NCBI RefSeq assembly: GCF_900101115.1
Contig: NZ_FNFU01000005.1
Span: 124,001-188,000, forward strand
DNA length: 64,000 nt
Direction: 5' to 3'
Source: Cryobacterium psychrotolerans
Lineage (GTDB): Bacteria; Actinomycetota; Actinomycetes; Actinomycetales; Microbacteriaceae
Shown one piece after another: positions 29,969-62,832 of the stretch. The position numbers and the translations under genes are program-made. Position 1 is the first letter of the stretch; the number at the start of each line of letters is the position of its first letter. The notes below the pieces were generated by a model. It was not told the origin of the DNA. It saw only the letters and a list, made by a program, of their open reading frames with translations, and did no database searches.

Positions 29969-30548
29969 GGCGCAGCGCGGAGTGGCCGACTAGCTCGCCG
30001 CGGGGCCGTGCGGCATATGTACGTTTCTGAAACGCCGCCTAAGACCGGGTGCCGAACCTCACGGCAGCGCGGCGTCAGGGAGGAGCCTCAGGCGGCCCCT
30101 GCTACCCCCCGCCAAGGCCAAAGCTGGACCCGTGAACTCCGGGCGTCCCCCGCACGCCCTACGCGGCGCTGGGCGGCTCCGGAAGCTACGCCAAACTGGC
30201 AGCGGTCGGGACACGCCCCACGACGACAGTCCCTGGCGACGAAGGCGGCATCGCAATCCCCCAGGACGTCGAGATAACGTTCTGCAGCAGGGCTAGTTCC
30301 GGGGCGCACTCGGGGCGCACCGTCAGAAATGGGCGATTCAGTCCCCCGCGATTCCGGGGCACACAAGGCGCACCCAAGTACACACGTATTACTACCTAAG
30401 ATCACCCAAGTGCTACCAACTCACGCACTCGTCGAGAAGCACTCGAGGAAAGCAAAAGGCCATCTCCTGTGTGGGAAATGGCCCTTGACCTAGGTAAATA
30501 TCTAAATATCGGTTGTAGTCCGCGACCTGTTATGCGGATATTCATGTG
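29969..30548. other. Gene-free stretch with a recombinase remnant
   Basis: No intact gene. A short plus-strand piece at 30151-30210 (TPYAALGGSGSYAKLAAVG) resembles the C-terminus of the serine recombinase at 12541 (TLYAALTGSGKYAGV) and is probably a relic of a related element. The rest up to the tRNA genes holds nothing I can support. Confidence 0.4.
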
Positions 30549-30621
30549 TGGAGCCACGGGGAATCGAACCCCGGACCTCCTGCTTGCAAAGCAGGCGCTC
30601 TACCAATTGAGCTATGGCCCC
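30549..30621 (-). tRNA. tRNA-Ala (TGC)
   Basis: A 73-nt cloverleaf read on the minus strand. The acceptor GGGGCCA pairs with TGGCTCC, the D-arm is AGCTCAATTGGTAGAGC, the anticodon loop CTTTGCAAG gives TGC, and the T-arm is GGGGTTCGATTCCCC. CCA is not encoded. Confidence 0.96.
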
Positions 30622-30756: not shown

Positions 30757-30808
30757 GGAACCAGCCGGTTTCTCCCAATCGAGACGAGAGAAAACCGCGG
30801 CTGGTTCC
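30757..30808. repeat. Hairpin between tRNA-Ile and DUF3566
   Basis: The left arm GGAACCAGCCGGTTTCTC is the near-complement of the right arm GAGAAAACCGCGGCTGGTTCC. The stem is strong but has no clear U tract, so it may act as a processing signal or weak terminator for the leftward gyrB-gyrA-DUF3566 operon. Confidence 0.5.
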
Positions 30809-30818
30809 ACGTGAAACG
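30803..30818. promoter_or_regulatory. parS-like site near DUF3566
   Basis: GGTTCCACGTGAAACG matches the parS consensus (TGTTNCACGTGAAACA) at all core positions, with changes only at both ends. It lies 14 kb from parAB on the other side of the origin. Confidence 0.6.
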
Positions 30819-44916: not shown

Positions 44917-44932
44917 GGTTTCACGTGAAACA
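44917..44932. promoter_or_regulatory. parS site overlapping the parA start
   Basis: GGTTTCACGTGAAACA differs from TGTTTCACGTGAAACA only at the first base. The GTG start of parA (44925) is inside the site, so ParB binding could repress parAB. Confidence 0.9.
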
Positions 44933-45854
44933 TCCTGGTGAAGACCAGCAAGTCAGCAGCCCAGCGGGATTCGACACGCCGCTCGCTCGTGAGATTTCGG
45001 ACCTGACCCGCCGACGCCAGGCGCTCGCCTCCGAACGCCTCCCCCAGCCCGAGAAAACTCGGGTTCTGACGGTGTCGAACCAGAAGGGCGGGGTGGGTAA
45101 GACGACCACCGCGGTCAATCTCGCCGCCGCGCTGGCGAGGCAGGGCGCCCGGGTGCTCGTGATCGACCTGGACCCGCAGGGCAACGCCTCAACGGCGCTC
45201 GGAGTCGAGCATCGGGCCGAAACCCGCAGCGTGTACGACGTCATCATCAACGACATGCCGCTCGCCGATGTCGTTCAGAAGAGCCCGGAATTCGGTGCGC
45301 TGTTCTGCGTTCCGGCGACGATTCACCTGGCTGGAGCGGAAATCGAACTGGTTTCGCTGGTTGCGCGCGAACAGCGGCTTCGACGCGCACTGGATCTGCA
45401 TGTGCGCGAAATGACGGATCCGTATCACTATGTGTTCATCGACTGTCCCCCGTCGCTGGGCCTGCTGACAATCAATGCCTTCGTCGCTGCCCGGGAAGTT
45501 CTGATCCCGATCCAGTGTGAGTACTACGCGCTCGAGGGCCTGAGCCAGCTTCTCAAGAACATCGAACTCATCGAGAAGCACCTCAATCCCGACCTCGCGG
45601 TCTCAACGATCCTGCTCACGATGTACGACAGCCGAACGAACCTGGCCAACCAGGTGGCCCAGGATGTGCGCGACCACTTCCCGGATCAGGTGCTGGATAC
45701 CCTGATTCCGCGTTCCGTGCGGGTGTCCGAGGCTCCGAGCTACGGGCAGAGTGTGATCAGTTACGATTTGAACTCCGCAGGATCGCTTTCCTACCTCGAA
45801 GCAGCGGCAGAAATCGCCCGGCGGGGCGCCCCAGAAACAGGAGCACAGCAATAA
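44925..45854 (+). CDS. parA: Chromosome-partitioning ATPase ParA (Soj)
   Basis: Walker-type ATPase of 309 residues that binds the nucleoid and pulls ParB-parS complexes. The deviant Walker A reads SNQKGGVGKTTTAVNLA, Walker B HYVFIDCPPSLGLL, and RSVRVSEAPSYGQSV is near the C-terminus. The start is a GTG within a parS site. Its stop TAA shares one base with the parB ATG. Confidence 0.96.
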   Translation: MKHPGEDQQVSSPAGFDTPLAREISDLTRRRQALASERLPQPEKTRVLTVSNQKGGVGKTTTAVNLAAALARQGARVLVIDLDPQGNASTALGVEHRAETRSVYDVIINDMPLADVVQKSPEFGALFCVPATIHLAGAEIELVSLVAREQRLRRALDLHVREMTDPYHYVFIDCPPSLGLLTINAFVAAREVLIPIQCEYYALEGLSQLLKNIELIEKHLNPDLAVSTILLTMYDSRTNLANQVAQDVRDHFPDQVLDTLIPRSVRVSEAPSYGQSVISYDLNSAGSLSYLEAAAEIARRGAPETGAQQ

Positions 45855-46831
45855 TGGCGAAACGGACTGGCCTCGGCCGCGGCATTGGCGCATTGATTCC
45901 CGTTCAGGACCCGGCTCGGCTCTCCCGCCCGGTGGACGTCTTCTTCCCCTACGCGGAAGGGCAGGACCCCGACAAGGCGCCGGCCGCGGACGTGGCGGAT
46001 GAACCGGAGGATCTCCTCCCCGTGCCCGGGGCCCGGCTCGCGCACCTCGACCCGGCCGATATCGTTCCGAACGCGGTTCAGCCCCGCACCGTCTTCGACG
46101 AGAGCGACCTGTCGGAACTGATCCACAGCATCCGCGAAGTCGGCGTCTTGCAGCCGATCGTGGTGCGACCGCTCCTGGAACAGCCGGGCAAGTACGAATT
46201 GGTCATGGGCGAACGTCGCCTGCGGGCGAGCAAGGCGATCGGGCTGCCGAGCATTCCCGCCGTTGTTCGTGAGACCGCGGATGTCGACATGCTCCGCGAC
46301 GCCCTGCTCGAGAACCTGCACCGCGCACAGCTCAACCCGCTCGAAGAGGCGTCGGCGTACCAGCAACTGCTGGCCGACTTCGGCATCACGCAGGAGGAGC
46401 TCGCGACGCGGATTGGTCGGTCTCGGCCGCAAATCACGAATACCCTGCGTCTGCTGAAACTTCCGGAACCGGTGCAGCTTCGGGTGGCCGCGGGTGTGCT
46501 CAGTGCCGGCCACGCGCGGGCGATCCTGTCCGTGGGAGACCACCAGGGGATGTTGCGCCTCGCCGACAAGATCGTCAACGAAGACCTCTCGGTTCGCGCG
46601 GCCGAGGCGGCCGCGACCGCGGTGCCCAAAGCGGCGTCGACGCGCCCCGCGCCGGGGAAGCGGCAGGGTCACCTAGACGAGATCGCGGAACGCCTCGGCG
46701 ACCGCCTCGACACGCGTGTGAAGATCAACTTGGGAGCAAGAAAAGGCCAGATCACAGTGGATTTCGCTACGATCGGTGACCTCAACCGCATCCTCGTCGT
46801 CCTGGGCGAGCCCGGCTTCGGAGCGAACTAG
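45854..46831 (+). CDS. parB: Chromosome-partitioning protein ParB (Spo0J)
   Basis: CTP-dependent DNA clamp that loads at parS, 325 residues. The CTP-binding arginine motif is GERRLRASKAIG. The HTH core (ITQEELATRIGRSRPQITN) recognises parS, and the C-terminal dimerisation domain ends LNRILVVLGEPG. The seven parS sites immediately downstream are its expected targets. Confidence 0.96.
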   Translation: MAKRTGLGRGIGALIPVQDPARLSRPVDVFFPYAEGQDPDKAPAADVADEPEDLLPVPGARLAHLDPADIVPNAVQPRTVFDESDLSELIHSIREVGVLQPIVVRPLLEQPGKYELVMGERRLRASKAIGLPSIPAVVRETADVDMLRDALLENLHRAQLNPLEEASAYQQLLADFGITQEELATRIGRSRPQITNTLRLLKLPEPVQLRVAAGVLSAGHARAILSVGDHQGMLRLADKIVNEDLSVRAAEAAATAVPKAASTRPAPGKRQGHLDEIAERLGDRLDTRVKINLGARKGQITVDFATIGDLNRILVVLGEPGFGAN

Positions 46832-46973
46832 CTTTCGACCCGCAGGATCGTTCCTGACGAGGTGAAAACCGCCAAATTAACCTCAGTTCTGCGCCGGATC
46901 TGCAAACAGAAGCTGGCGTTGGGGCCGCCGATGATCGCCCCGGGCCGAGTCCGGCACGCAGGCTGAGGCCGCA

Positions 46974-46989
46974 TGTTTCACGTGAAACA
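46974..46989. promoter_or_regulatory. parS site
   Basis: Perfect TGTTTCACGTGAAACA palindrome, first of the array downstream of parB. Confidence 0.93.
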
Positions 46990-47196
46990 TCTTCGCTGCC
47001 GACCGTTTCAGCGGTGCTGCTTGCGGGCTGCTTGCTGTGTTTCTCGTGGCGCAGCCAGCCGGAGTTCCGCGTTCCCCTATCTGCCGTATGGGGACGCGCG
47101 GGATGATTCGCCCACGGCGGGCGAAGGGACTTCACGAGCACGCCAGCGTGTCGGTAGTTTTGATCCTTTGGGCGGTCCCCGTTATGGGGGAGTGTA

Positions 47197-47212
47197 CGTT
47201 TCACGTGAAACA
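47197..47212. promoter_or_regulatory. parS site
   Basis: CGTTTCACGTGAAACA, one outer mismatch to consensus. Confidence 0.9.
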
Positions 47213-47439
47213 TCAGCACCCCCGACGACATCTGTGGTCTTCGGCGGGTCCAAGCGGCCCAGGCGGACCCAAATCGGTGAGACTTCGGCGCAGGGACGGA
47301 ACCCCATGAACTCTCCCCTGCTGGTGCGATCATGACCACCTTGTGTAGGTTCGCGCTTCCGTCGGAGAGTGTTTCCCACGGCAGTAATCCGCGCACGAGT
47401 TCCATCAGGCCCGGGTCTCTTACGCGCACCGTGCCGCAC

Positions 47440-47455
47440 GTTTCACGTGAAACAT
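47440..47455. promoter_or_regulatory. parS site
   Basis: CGTTTCACGTGAAACA, one outer mismatch to consensus. Confidence 0.9.
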
Positions 47456-47632
47456 GCCCGATAGCGAGTGGTTCCGGGGCGGAGCGTGCCCTTGCAAGCC
47501 TGAATCTTTCCCCAACGCCGCCCGGGCGTGCCCCGATGTGACGCCGATTTCCCGCAGTGGAGGCCATCCTGAGGGCCGACTTTCCCTGTGTGTGCCGTAT
47601 TGACGGGGATGGGGTCCATGAGTGCCCAGCAA

Positions 47633-47648
47633 TGTTTCACGTGAAACA
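47633..47648. promoter_or_regulatory. parS site
   Basis: Perfect TGTTTCACGTGAAACA palindrome. Confidence 0.93.
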
Positions 47649-47880
47649 TGCCCTCTGCGCGGCCGAGAGTTGCGGCCATTCCGCTGCACCCAGTAAGTCT
47701 TACAGAAAACATGCGAGTCGGTTCGCGCGTGCCAACTTAGGCTCCAGGCGTGCACGCACCGCTGTCGTGGTGAGGCTCCTTTCCGGAGAGAGAGCCGAAC
47801 TTTGCAGATCGGCCCCGAAAATGCCCCGCCTGAAGGCGTTGTGGGGCAACGTTCCAAGAATGCAGCCCCAAAGACCATGG

Positions 47881-47896
47881 GGTTTCACGTGAAACA
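47881..47896. promoter_or_regulatory. parS site
   Basis: GGTTTCACGTGAAACA, one outer mismatch to consensus. Confidence 0.9.
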
Positions 47897-48098
47897 TTGC
47901 CCCTGCTTGTCTCGGGACAGGTCTCGCGGGAACAGGTGGGTGACCCCGGGTGGCGATATCAGGACATTCGTGGGAGCTTGGTCATCCAGGGGCGCAGCCC
48001 CGGCCGACCAGGCCACTATCCCCAGAAATCGACCCGTCTCGCGTCGAACGTTTACGCTGGGTTGATCCAGCTAAGGGCCGTTTGCGGTGAACCAGCAG

Positions 48099-48114
48099 TG
48101 TTTCACGTGAAACA
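48099..48114. promoter_or_regulatory. parS site
   Basis: Perfect TGTTTCACGTGAAACA palindrome. Confidence 0.93.
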
Positions 48115-48160
48115 TGACGAATCCGGACGCCACGAGTGGTCCCTGGCGCCCGGAACGTGT

Positions 48161-48242
48161 GGCCAACTCAGGAGATCCGTAGATTTTCGAGGGTCCGACC
48201 GGACTGCTCCGGCTGTCGCCGGCGGAATTTCCTGAGTTAGCC
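48161..48242. repeat. Inverted-repeat element, copy 1
   Basis: Left arm GGCCAACTCAGGAGAT (48161-48176) and right arm AATTTCCTGAGTTAGCC (48226-48242) are near-perfect complements around a GC-rich centre. Copy 2 lies at 48472-48553. Confidence 0.65.
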
Positions 48243-48280
48243 CCACGCTGGTGCTCTGCGCGGGACTGACAGCGGAACAG

Positions 48281-48340
48281 GTGGGCAGAACGGGGCGCGG
48301 GTGGGCGGAACGGGGCGCGGGTGGGCTGAACGGGTGGCGG
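48281..48340. repeat. Three 20-bp tandem repeats
   Basis: GTGGGCAGAACGGGGCGCGG, GTGGGCGGAACGGGGCGCGG and GTGGGCTGAACGGGTGGCGG follow each other without a gap. Confidence 0.85.
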
Positions 48341-48471
48341 ATGGATCTTGGTCTGGTGTGACAAGGCGATGTGCCGTGGGCAAGCAGAGAAACACGTTGC
48401 GTTCGGCGTCCTGGGCGCCGGGAAAGAGTGACACTGAGGCACGCGATATCCCCGTACGGGAACCGGGGAGA

Positions 48472-48553
48472 GGTCAACTCAGGAGGTCCGGGGCCCGCAG
48501 GTGGTTTTCGCGCACTGGTTCGGCCCGCGTGGCCGGAATCTGCTGAGCTGGCT
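48472..48553. repeat. Inverted-repeat element, copy 2
   Basis: The left arm GGTCAACTCAGGAGGTCCG and a right arm reading GGAATCTGCTGAGCTGGCTC are imperfect complements. The left arm repeats the left arm of copy 1 at 48161. The spacing between arms is the same. Confidence 0.5.
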
Positions 48554-48826
48554 CCGGATGAACTCGGCCGTCGCCGGAGGCCGCGTGCGACGATCGGAGA
48601 TTCGTGCACCGCATTCCGGTTTCCCGGGATGCCGGCCCGATAGCACTCGTCCTGCTGCGCTGCTGCAGCTGTTGCTAAGGAAGAAGCTGCTGCTGTCGCA
48701 AAGCAAGTAAATGACCGGATATGCAATTTGATCAGCAATTTTCTATAGACGACCTAGTGTGTCAGCGCGCGTCGATTACGCGGCTTGCATGAGCTGACAC
48801 ACCGGTCAGTCGGGCGACGCCGGGAG

Positions 48827-48842
48827 TGTTTCACGTGAAACA
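48827..48842. promoter_or_regulatory. parS site
   Basis: Perfect TGTTTCACGTGAAACA palindrome, the last of the array, 728 bp from the previous site. Confidence 0.93.
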
Positions 48843-48846
48843 TCGG

Positions 48847-48876
48847 CCGCACCCGCACCCGCACCCGCACCCGCAC
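48847..48876. repeat. Hexanucleotide tandem repeat (CCGCAC)5
   Basis: Five perfect 6-bp units begin 4 bp after a parS site, outside any gene. Confidence 0.85.
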
Positions 48877-48977
48877 CCGGAGCACCACCGGGGCCCAGGT
48901 CGCACAAACAGTTCCCGGGCCTGCGGCGCCCCGGGGGAGGGGTTCTCCCTCGACGGATCCGGGACGGAAGAAAAAAA

Positions 48978-49934
48978 TCAGGCTTCGGCGACAGCCGCCC
49001 GGGCGAGCGCCGCGTAGACCGCGCCGAGCGACTCGCCCGATGCCTCGATCGCCTGCGGGACCAGCGACGTCTCGGTCAGCCCGGGCAGAACATTGGCCTC
49101 CAGGAACCACGGCGTCCCCGCCGCGTCGACGATGAGGTCGATCCGGGACAGGTGGCGGAGGCCCAGGAGCGAATGGATCGCAACCGCAGTCGACTCGACA
49201 GCCGCAAGGACGGTCGGGTCCATGCGAGCGGGAGCGTAGAACAGGGTCTCGCCGGCGTTGTAGCGCGCCTCGAAGCTGTACACCCCGCTCAGGGGAACAA
49301 TCTCGACCGCGGGGAGGGCGATGGGGCCCTCGCCCTTGTCGATAACCGTCACCGAAACCTCCGTGCCGGAGATGCGGGACTCGACCAGGGCGACATCGGC
49401 GTAGGCATAGGCGTCCACCATCGCGCGCGGCAGTCCGGCCGCGGCGGTGACGATAGTCACCCCCTGCGCGGACCCGCCCTGAGCCGGCTTGACCACGAGG
49501 GGCGCGGGCAGGGCGGCGAGCAGCCGTTCGAGAACACTCGTCGCGCCGAGGTCGCGGAAGGTCTCCTTCGAGAGGGCGACGGATGCCGGCGTCGCGTAAC
49601 CGGCCCGGCGCACGAGTACCTTCGCCGTGGGCTTGGACCAGGCCAGGGCGGCCGCTTCGCCGCGCGCGCCGACGTGGGGGATACCCGTGGTCTCGATCAA
49701 CGCGAGGAGCGCACCGTCTTCACCGGTCGCCCCGTGCAGCGTTGGCCAGATGACATCCGGGTTGCGATCGACGAGTTCGGAGAGCAGCCCGGCGTGCGGG
49801 TCGATCACCGTGACGTCGTGGCCCGCTCCGGTCAGGGCATCGGCCAGGCGGCGTCCCGAGCGAAGGGACACCTCACGTTCGTGCGAGATCCCGCCCGCCA
49901 GCACAACGATGTCGAGGGGTACGAATTCGGTCAT
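48978..49934 (-). CDS. ddl: D-alanine--D-alanine ligase
   Basis: ATP-grasp enzyme that makes D-Ala-D-Ala for peptidoglycan. The 318-residue length is near the shorter DdlB-type size. The features are VLAGGISHEREVSLRSGR, PTLHGATGEDG, the ATP-grasp loop VVKPAQGGSAQGVT, and the metal-binding end WFLEANVLPGLTETSLVPQA. It faces the centromere region and is followed on the opposite side by the aminotransferase gene 39 bp upstream. Confidence 0.93.
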   Translation of the reverse strand: MTEFVPLDIVVLAGGISHEREVSLRSGRRLADALTGAGHDVTVIDPHAGLLSELVDRNPDVIWPTLHGATGEDGALLALIETTGIPHVGARGEAAALAWSKPTAKVLVRRAGYATPASVALSKETFRDLGATSVLERLLAALPAPLVVKPAQGGSAQGVTIVTAAAGLPRAMVDAYAYADVALVESRISGTEVSVTVIDKGEGPIALPAVEIVPLSGVYSFEARYNAGETLFYAPARMDPTVLAAVESTAVAIHSLLGLRHLSRIDLIVDAAGTPWFLEANVLPGLTETSLVPQAIEASGESLGAVYAALARAAVAEA

Positions 49935-61399: not shown

Positions 61400-61430
61400 C
61401 CGCCCCCGCCCCCGCCCGCCCCGCCCCTTT

Positions 61431-61505
61431 CGCCGAGATTGACGGTTCCGGTCGAGTTTGCCCGGCACACCAGTCAAACTCGACCGCAACAGGCAACCTC
61501 GGCGG
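61431..61505. repeat. Palindromic dispersed repeat, copy 1
   Basis: Nested inverted repeats: outer CGCCGAG (61431) with CTCGGCG (61498-61504), and inner GGTCGAGTTTG with CAAACTCGACC. A related copy lies at 62601-62672, on the other side of the AbiEi-like gene. Confidence 0.7.
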
Positions 61506-61603
61506 CACTAGCAGCCTCCTCCCGAGGATGCCGCGCCTGATCTTTGTGCACAGCTCGGCACCGCCACGCCGCCGCGACCAGGGCGCCTTGCATGATCGTC
61601 GGC

Positions 61604-62590
61604 ATGGACAGCCGCGATCTCCCAACGCAGGCGGAGCTTGAGCTCACGCGCGACCAGGCCCTGGTCGGGCTGGACGGCCGGGCACTGCGCCGGGCACATC
61701 AGAACGGCGAGAAGAACCGCCTCTCGCGTGGCGTGTACCTTTCAGCTCGAGTGTGGGACGCAGCGGATGACGACGCCCGGTACCTCTTGCGGGTGAAGTC
61801 CGTCGTGCTGACCAGGCAGGCGCGCCCAGTGCTCTCACATTTCTCGGCCGCGCGGGTCTGGGGCATTCCCATCCTCGGGTCCTGGCCCCGCGAGGTTCAC
61901 CTGATGGCCCGCGGCGGAGGGACTCGAGGGTCGAAGTACGGCATCGTCTGGCATCACGATTCGCTGCCGGACGATGAGGTCACGGACATCGACGGCTTCC
62001 TCGTGACCAGCAGGCTGCGCACGCTCGTCGACCTGGCTCGGAGCACCCGGTTCCTCTCGGCCGTGGTGAGCCTGGACGCCGGGCTCAGCGCCGCATACCG
62101 GCTGCCTGATGGGCAGCGCGACCGCGACATCGCCAAAGGAGAGCTCGTCGAAGCCGTCGCGCGCCTCGGCTCAGTTCGCGGATGTCGCGGCGCTCGGCTG
62201 GCCGCCGGCTTCGCGGACGGGCTGTCGGGCTCTCCGGGCGAATCCGCGAGCCGCGCGAACATCTTCCTGTCCGGCTTCCCGGCCCCGCTTCTGCAGGTGT
62301 CCTACCCACGAATCGAAGGTGGGGAGGACATCGTCGATTTCACCTGGGAGGCGCGGCACCATGTTCGCAGGGTCCCGGTCCTCGGAGAGTTCGACGGCAA
62401 GGTCAAGTACACCCGCAACGAATACACACACGGACTCCCGATCGAAGAAATCGTCTGGCGGGAGAAGGTTCGCGAAGACCGGCTCCGCGCCCCCGGACGC
62501 GGAATGGTCCGCTGGCTGTGGGATGTCGCGTTGAATCCCGTCGCTCTCCGGGCACGATTAATCAATGCCGGACTGAGGCCGGAGCGATGA
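61604..62590 (+). CDS. AbiEi-like protein with possible nuclease domain
   Basis: Actinobacterial protein of 328 residues (ATG at 61604, no clear ribosome-binding site; an upstream ATG at 61592 is possible). The N-terminal winged-helix-like part (LRRAHQNGEKNRLSRGVYLS) matches AbiEi-type type IV antitoxins. The C-terminal part (GEDIVDFTWE then VLGEFDGKVKY) resembles an Asp-Glu-Lys nuclease core of the DUF559/Vsr group. It has no partner toxin beside it, so it may be a solitary member. Palindromic repeats flank it on both sides. Confidence 0.6.
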   Translation: MDSRDLPTQAELELTRDQALVGLDGRALRRAHQNGEKNRLSRGVYLSARVWDAADDDARYLLRVKSVVLTRQARPVLSHFSAARVWGIPILGSWPREVHLMARGGGTRGSKYGIVWHHDSLPDDEVTDIDGFLVTSRLRTLVDLARSTRFLSAVVSLDAGLSAAYRLPDGQRDRDIAKGELVEAVARLGSVRGCRGARLAAGFADGLSGSPGESASRANIFLSGFPAPLLQVSYPRIEGGEDIVDFTWEARHHVRRVPVLGEFDGKVKYTRNEYTHGLPIEEIVWREKVREDRLRAPGRGMVRWLWDVALNPVALRARLINAGLRPER

Positions 62591-62600
62591 GCCGGGGCGC

Positions 62601-62672
62601 CCACTTTGAGGCTTCCGGTCGAGTTTGCCCCGCGTACCGGGCAACCTCGACCGGAACGGTCAAACTCGGCGG
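62601..62672. repeat. Palindromic dispersed repeat, copy 2
   Basis: Shares TTCCGGTCGAGTTTGCCC with copy 1 and has internal complements CCGGTCGAG and CTCGACCGG. It lies between the AbiEi-like gene and the rpsF promoter region. Confidence 0.7.
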
Positions 62673-62832
62673 GCGGGACGAAGGACGGGCGTGGTGGCGG
62701 AGGGCCGCCGCATCCGGTAGTCTGGGCAGGTTGTCTGTGCGCCGGATTCCCGGCCTCCGCGTTCAACACATGTCACAACCCTCCTGTTGCAGAGATTCTG
62801 CAGCCGTTTAGTCCGAAGGAGGTGGGTTAGTC

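Follow-up and report, generated by a model that had tools for sequence, protein, structure and literature searches.

A compact parS array in the parB–ddl gap of Cryobacterium, predicted to be the chromosomal centromere, keeps its address while site number and spacing vary

The stretch analysed here, referred to as the window, comprises 64,000 nucleotides of the Cryobacterium psychrotolerans genome (contig NZ_FNFU01000005.1, forward strand, positions 124,001 to 188,000). It covers a Cryobacterium origin region, and the nearest named match of its ParB protein belongs to C. tagatosivorans, at 96% identity. The gene order reads gyrA, gyrB, recF, gnd, dnaN, dnaA, rpmH, rnpA, yidC, jag, rsmG, parA, parB, a parS array and, in the opposite direction, ddl—all names except parA, parB, ddl and rsmG being our interpretation of the open reading frames (ORFs). 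The parA gene (44925..45854, plus strand) encodes a ParA-type ATPase of 309 aa; the 25 NCBIfam matches listed of 31 were to ParA/MinD-type or related ATPases, all under the curated cut-offs. The 325-aa product of parB (45854..46831, plus strand) carries ParB_N, HTH_ParB and ParB_C domains, and it aligns to solved Spo0J/ParB structures through a GERRxRA stretch, which has a role in CTP binding. No second ParB homologue was found in the genome, and this protein is the only one there with a ParB_N domain. It passes the cut-off of the general ParB model (195.5 against 58.45); the Noc model scored best, yet its 208.9 bits fall short of the cut-off of 315, which argues against placing the protein in the Noc/NBS group. 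The right border of the array is formed by ddl, a D-alanine--D-alanine ligase gene (48978..49934, minus strand) convergent with parB; the stops of the two genes, at 46831 for parB and at 48978 for ddl, bound a gap of 2,146 bp (46832..48977).

Seven parS sites occupy this gap, at 46974..46989, 47197..47212, 47439..47454, 47633..47648, 47881..47896, 48099..48114 and, proximal to ddl, 48827..48842. The 14-mer core GTTTCACGTGAAAC is exact in all seven of them, and the 16-mer is exact in four (those starting at 46974, 47633, 48099 and 48827). An eighth exact core overlaps the parA start (44917..44932), and a more distant site at 30803 differs from the 16-mer at three positions, one of them in the core. 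Across the whole window, nine parS-like 16-mers were found at up to three mismatches against 0.11 expected, and none of 100 shuffles reached nine. The inventory given in the preliminary description—nine parS-like sites, seven of them in a gene-free block directly after parB, one at the parA start and one at 30803—was thus recovered in full. The intervals within the array are 223, 242, 194, 248, 218 and 728 bp; of the spacings reported earlier for the first six sites, 223, 248 and 218 bp agree, and the values of 243 and 193 bp are each off by one. All eight exact sites in the window read GTTTCACGTGAAACAT in one direction. Site polarity was rejected as a feature of the genus: among the 150 exact gap sites of 30 Cryobacterium loci, AT lies on the right in 53 and on the left in 54, and flank similarity between species is equal in direct and inverted orientation (7.19 versus 7.18 of 24, without the locus L018 of Cryobacterium sp. 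Y11).

The eight exact cores—seven in the gap and one at the parA start—are the only ones in the entire 3.25-Mb draft genome (45 contigs, 99.99% complete), and all lie within 3.9 kb. Allowing up to two mismatches adds three further places, all on the same contig; as a reversed control pattern also gives two matches per strand at this threshold, these weaker sites may be partly due to chance. The outlying variant (30803..30818, plus strand), with the core GTTCCACGTGAAAC, lies between a tRNA-Ile gene and a DUF3566 gene, about 11 kb from the dnaA–rpmH region and across dnaA from parAB. The closest species carries the identical variant in the matching stretch (G054:C68:50428), and 31 of the 57 genomes of the genus contain GTTCCACGTGAAAC, 29 with a single copy and two with a pair. 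Of the 21 genomes with full cluster positions, 11 have the variant; its distance from the cluster is 14.1 kb for the window's genome, 7.9–10.5 kb for seven others (G004, G005, G006, G011, G031, G038 and G041) and 0.7 kb for three (G002, G008 and G051).

Other content of the gap proved sparse. None of the 14 listed ORFs of at least 80 aa matched any Pfam family at E ≤ 0.001, no Rfam family reached its gathering score, and the search for promoter signals, hidden genes and RNA in the gap yielded nothing convincing. A CCGCAC hexamer run of 5.5 copies (48847–48879) adjoins the last parS, and similar runs occur in many genus genomes; when the spacer DNA of the window was searched in 57 of these genomes, most of the matches listed corresponded to this run and a few to other short pieces. 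In most arrays the outermost sites adjoin the flanking genes: of 30 Cryobacterium loci, 25 have their last site no more than 25 bp from the ddl stop, and 20 have their first no more than 35 bp from the parB stop. Such proximity would suit gap sites that act mainly as an insulator or terminator between the convergent parB and ddl. We consider this role very improbable, since the window itself is an exception at both gap ends (144 and 137 bp), terminator-like sites in its gap occur at the level of chance (two found against 2.0 expected, no excess), and all 20 Agromyces loci are devoid of gap sites, with parS located upstream instead.

The array, as predicted by sequence, is very probably the centromere of an ordinary chromosomal ParABS system. 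Its sites follow the conserved chromosomal parS consensus, the parAB operon lies near dnaA (as judged by ORF order and rpmH), ParB has the N-terminal, HTH and dimerisation domains of the family, and the SMC–ScpAB partner is represented by SMC and ScpA, both found in the same genome. Known components for CTP-dependent loading, for movement by ParA and for the loading of SMC are accordingly present. The preliminary description had left a choice between a plasmid-style and a specialised chromosomal centromere; a compact, non-coding chromosomal array, present in all 30 Cryobacterium loci, is the form borne out. Capture by the chromosome of a plasmid-type partition locus would account for the compactness of the array and its position next to parAB, both known from plasmids, but as far as can be judged from sequence it is refuted and we give it next to no credence: the parS consensus and the dnaA–rpmH–rsmG–parA–parB context are chromosomal, the genome has a single ParB_N protein, and the array stands at one place throughout the genus.

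To place the array in a comparative setting, we analysed the window together with 80 loci retained of 548 relatives, a sample skewed to close relatives. All 30 Cryobacterium loci (the window included) have 3–12 sites at up to one mismatch in the parB–ddl gap, with a median of five. Among the 51 other loci, 17 have at least one gap site (six of these at least three) and 32 have none; ddl was not found in the other two. On the strength of these counts, the address of the array is a genus trait that some neighbours share. At the genome level, 56 of 57 genus genomes carry 3–10 exact cores, and the one without cores is an 800-contig assembly; in all 21 Cryobacterium genomes with full position lists (G000, G001–G011 and nine further genomes from a set of 11 examined), every exact core falls into a single cluster of at most 5.5 kb. 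Agromyces, a member of the same bacterial family, resembles Cryobacterium in having parS near the parA start; it differs in that all sites of its 20 loci (two of them from one contig) precede parB, being located around parA and ahead of it. The two loci in question, L069 and L072 of Agromyces sp. Marseille-P2726, are parAB loci on contig NZ_CADDWM010000009.1 whose parS sites are arranged alike, perhaps an assembly duplication.

The constancy of the address does not extend to the layout. The preliminary description had pointed to the near-regular spacing and looked to the parB–ddl interval of related genomes for its conservation; that comparison finds the array in every Cryobacterium locus compared, with spacing and site number varying, an outcome which by the description's own standard counts against conserved spacing and site number but not against the existence of the array. 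Gap length ranges from 194 to 2,960 bp, spacing differs among Cryobacterium species, and of the 27 arrays that have four or more sites only three are more regular than random placement in the same gap at p ≤ 0.05, one of them being L018 with its exact tandem repetition of a 130-bp unit. A centromere with special phasing, for which a spacing of about 220 bp would matter, for example for bridging or looping, could draw on the first five intervals of the window, which are unusually even (P = 1.7e-4, a post hoc choice), and on a weak 10.5-bp phasing signal across 119 intervals without L018 (p = 0.012, uncorrected, with three periods tried). The six intervals of the window taken together are not regular (p = 0.30), the closest relative is spaced at 192, 197, 342, 341, 695 and 120 bp, and nothing convincing emerged for helical phasing of the sites; the comparison largely refutes a phased centromere, which we regard as most unlikely. 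As regularity is absent from most of the relatives' arrays, the near-regular spacing in the window probably arose by chance or is a weak vestige of duplication.

In strong relief to this variable layout stands the site sequence itself. The 30 gaps contain 165 cores, of which 150 are exact, 10 have one mismatch, one has two and four have three; shuffled spacers average 0, 0, 0 and 0.75 cores at zero, one, two and three mismatches, respectively. Copies of parS either stay exact or are lost, and the scarcity of decaying copies among the 165 cores favours selection on the sites—although very recent duplication could also explain it. The same figures bear on a simpler scenario of redundancy, in which one or two parS do the work and the rest are near-neutral copies accumulating where insertion breaks no gene. 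One parS is reported to be enough in Corynebacterium glutamicum (PMC7083940), the number of 3–12 sites and their spacing are patternless, the number of sites shows no significant correlation with gap length (Spearman 0.26, p = 0.16), and very recent duplication, as in L018, could likewise keep redundant copies exact. Neutral copies should nonetheless decay, yet the exact cores outnumber those with one to three mismatches by 150 to 15, and not one of the 30 loci has fewer than three sites; we therefore judge this scenario unlikely, if far from negligible.

The DNA between the sites does change. When the window was compared with a fetched 75-kb stretch of C. tagatosivorans, positions 30547–61416 aligned at about 89–92%, and the array gap (46878–48974) was the sole unaligned stretch of at least 60 bp within that range. 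Stretches 61417–61825 and 62078–62679 also remained unaligned and overlap a 348-aa ORF at 61544–62590; window positions 1–30546 gave no alignment to the fetched 75 kb. The alignment ends at 30547, at a tRNA-Ala gene (30548–30621), as if an island or rearrangement started there and extended leftward.

In 14 of the 16 closest Cryobacterium pairs, 0–38% of the spacer bases align, as counted on the shorter gap, compared with 94% in the closest pair (L031/L033) and 74% in L009/L011. These are unmasked values, used because masking of parS split alignable stretches, most severely in short gaps; on removal of the mask, the aligned fraction of the gap rose from 0.34 to 0.95 in the closest pair and from 0.61 to 0.77 in L009/L011. 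The alignment retained by these two pairs argues against a wholesale replacement of spacers between very close relatives. The non-coding dnaA–rpmH region (about 400 bp) aligns over 77–100% in the 16 pairs, a figure that offers no neutral yardstick for spacer change because the region is itself constrained. Fourfold sites of the same pairs are merely 0.56–0.78 identical, and plain drift with insertions and deletions may therefore explain a large part of how far the spacers have diverged; their turnover may possibly outpace neutral change.

Part of the variation in site number can be traced to duplication. Direct spacer repeats (E ≤ 1e-3) occur in 12 of 30 arrays, and in six of these parS stands in register with the repeat; when sites were placed at random in 300 trials, as many in-register pairs as observed arose in no more than 2.3% of trials for five of the six arrays and in 13.7% for the sixth (L029, C. 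frigoriphilum). The clearest case is L018 (7350–8286), where a 130-bp unit is repeated 7.2 times at 94% matching, with one parS per copy, one of these parS being mismatched—a tandem expansion within a chromosomal centromere. Arrays thus grow, on the evidence of these repeats and the register of their sites, partly through tandem duplication, which is documented for relatives of the window. Flank comparisons within arrays point the same way: without L018, direct-orientation similarity is 8.26 of 24 against 7.23 for shuffled arrays, a value that none of 500 shuffles reached, and inverted orientation shows no excess (7.25 of 24). Most of this excess comes from arrays with detected repeats. In the 18 arrays lacking them, flank similarity is reached by three of 1,000 species shuffles, and the direct-versus-inverted part is weak (88 of 1,000 random flips reach it), for which reason flank similarity is only suggestive of an origin of the window array by duplication. 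In the window gap, no duplicated spacer was found and tandem-repeat finding returned only short units unrelated to parS; with no spacer repeat to support it, duplication was set aside as the origin of this particular array. A repeat of another kind follows parB in L029, where an 81-bp, near-perfect and parS-free tandem repeat of about eight copies occupies positions 1234–1870 of the gap.

A further feature, not mentioned in the preliminary description, is that the start of parA is embedded in a parS site: the GTG at the centre of the site, at 44925, is the likely start codon, and the next possible start lies 49 codons downstream. An AAAGG or a near variant, resembling a ribosome-binding site, immediately precedes this site, with the left arm of parS forming its spacer. 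No ATG, GTG or TTG codon of the parA frame could serve as a start ahead of the parS GTG in 27 of 30 Cryobacterium loci; the remaining three also have this GTG in frame, but downstream of another possible start. Of all 81 loci, 52 have the GTG in frame with parA and inside its ORF, 22 have it in a different frame and three have it in frame but ahead of a stop; four have no site within 250 bp. The combination of AAAGG followed by parS was found in four of 297 genomes sampled across the order, i.e., all three genus genomes sampled and one other. ParB bound at this site would be expected to hinder transcription or initiation of parA and so dampen parAB expression; the embedded start codon hints at an intrinsic feedback by which occupancy of the centromere would adjust the supply of ParAB.

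How does the array compare with known centromeres? The preliminary description had set it against chromosomal parS sites scattered over genes, a contrast that does not stand: according to PMC8357415, parS sites lie within 5–40 kb in most bacteria, and nine of ten sites are intergenic in C. glutamicum (PMC7083940). Measured against that range, 3.9 kb is tight for clustered parS, and the authors of PMC8357415 link tight clustering to fewer SMC collisions. Likewise an actinobacterium, C. glutamicum has ten clustered sites of the same kind, which are bound by ParB and from which chromosome folding begins (PMC7083940). Its sites extend over 35 kb and lie 73 kb from oriC (PMC7083940), as opposed to eight exact cores in 3.9 kb, 3–7 kb from dnaA–rpmH and with seven in one gap. 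Myxococcus xanthus also has a multi-site array (24 sites) adjoining parAB, but upstream of these genes, with another consensus and about 30 kb from ori; duplication or turnover is not reported for it in the passages of PMC3778016 consulted. The parS1–4 sites of Pseudomonas aeruginosa form a few-site cluster near oriC in which one site is enough; they differ in being four, with two upstream of genes they repress, and in not constituting a single non-coding array after parB (PMC4368675, PMC7022226). The Cryobacterium array is a known kind of centromere, very compact and confined to one convergent gap. Among the titles and opening lines of abstracts listed, we found no account of bacterial parS-array turnover or of a parA start embedded in parS; the only papers retrieved for parS in Cryobacterium and for parS and ParB in Microbacteriaceae dealt with Acinetobacter plasmids and with a herbicide degrader, respectively. 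In the passages and listings consulted, there was no description of this manner of change, with fixed address and site sequence and shifting spacers and number.

Taken as the centromere of a chromosomal ParABS system, the locus would operate as follows, in line with known ParABS biology. ParB dimers would load as CTP clamps at the eight exact parS within 3.9 kb and slide into the DNA between and around the sites, and the resulting ParB–parS assembly would form one partition complex 3–7 kb from the dnaA–rpmH region, the presumed oriC. ParA would segregate this complex, and SMC–ScpAB would presumably load onto it. Between the converging parB and ddl, the array would be free of coding constraint and exposed to little through-transcription, leaving sites free to be gained and lost; the genus retains the address and the site sequence as number, spacing and spacers drift, partly via tandem duplication of parS units. 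A single parS is sufficient in C. glutamicum, for which a multiplicity of sites is regarded as a source of robustness (PMC7083940); this sufficiency leaves the need for eight sites unexplained.

A more ambitious reading, which we offer tentatively and lean somewhat against, is that of a bacterial regional centromere whose position is conserved but whose DNA is not. Several exact parS would be selected in a convergent, gene-free gap, and both the replacement of spacers and the expansion of arrays by tandem duplication would outpace change in the remainder of the origin region—a likeness, by analogy, to satellite turnover at eukaryotic centromeres. A separate parS, fixed in position, would also serve as the start codon of parA, tying parAB expression to the size of the partition complex. 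The closest pair, which still aligns in the unmasked control, makes this reading less likely.

A review of ParABS asks why the number of parS varies and what drives parS clustering over evolution (PMC7333895). Cryobacterium offers a natural series in this respect—one address at which 3–12 sites stand at widely differing intervals, with tandem duplication plain to see in certain species—that makes the origin of parS clusters directly testable. As a minor observation, ATGTTTCACGTGAAACAT translates as MFHVKH on either strand, giving rise to spurious small ORFs with MFHVKH/R, for example at window positions 46973–47335.
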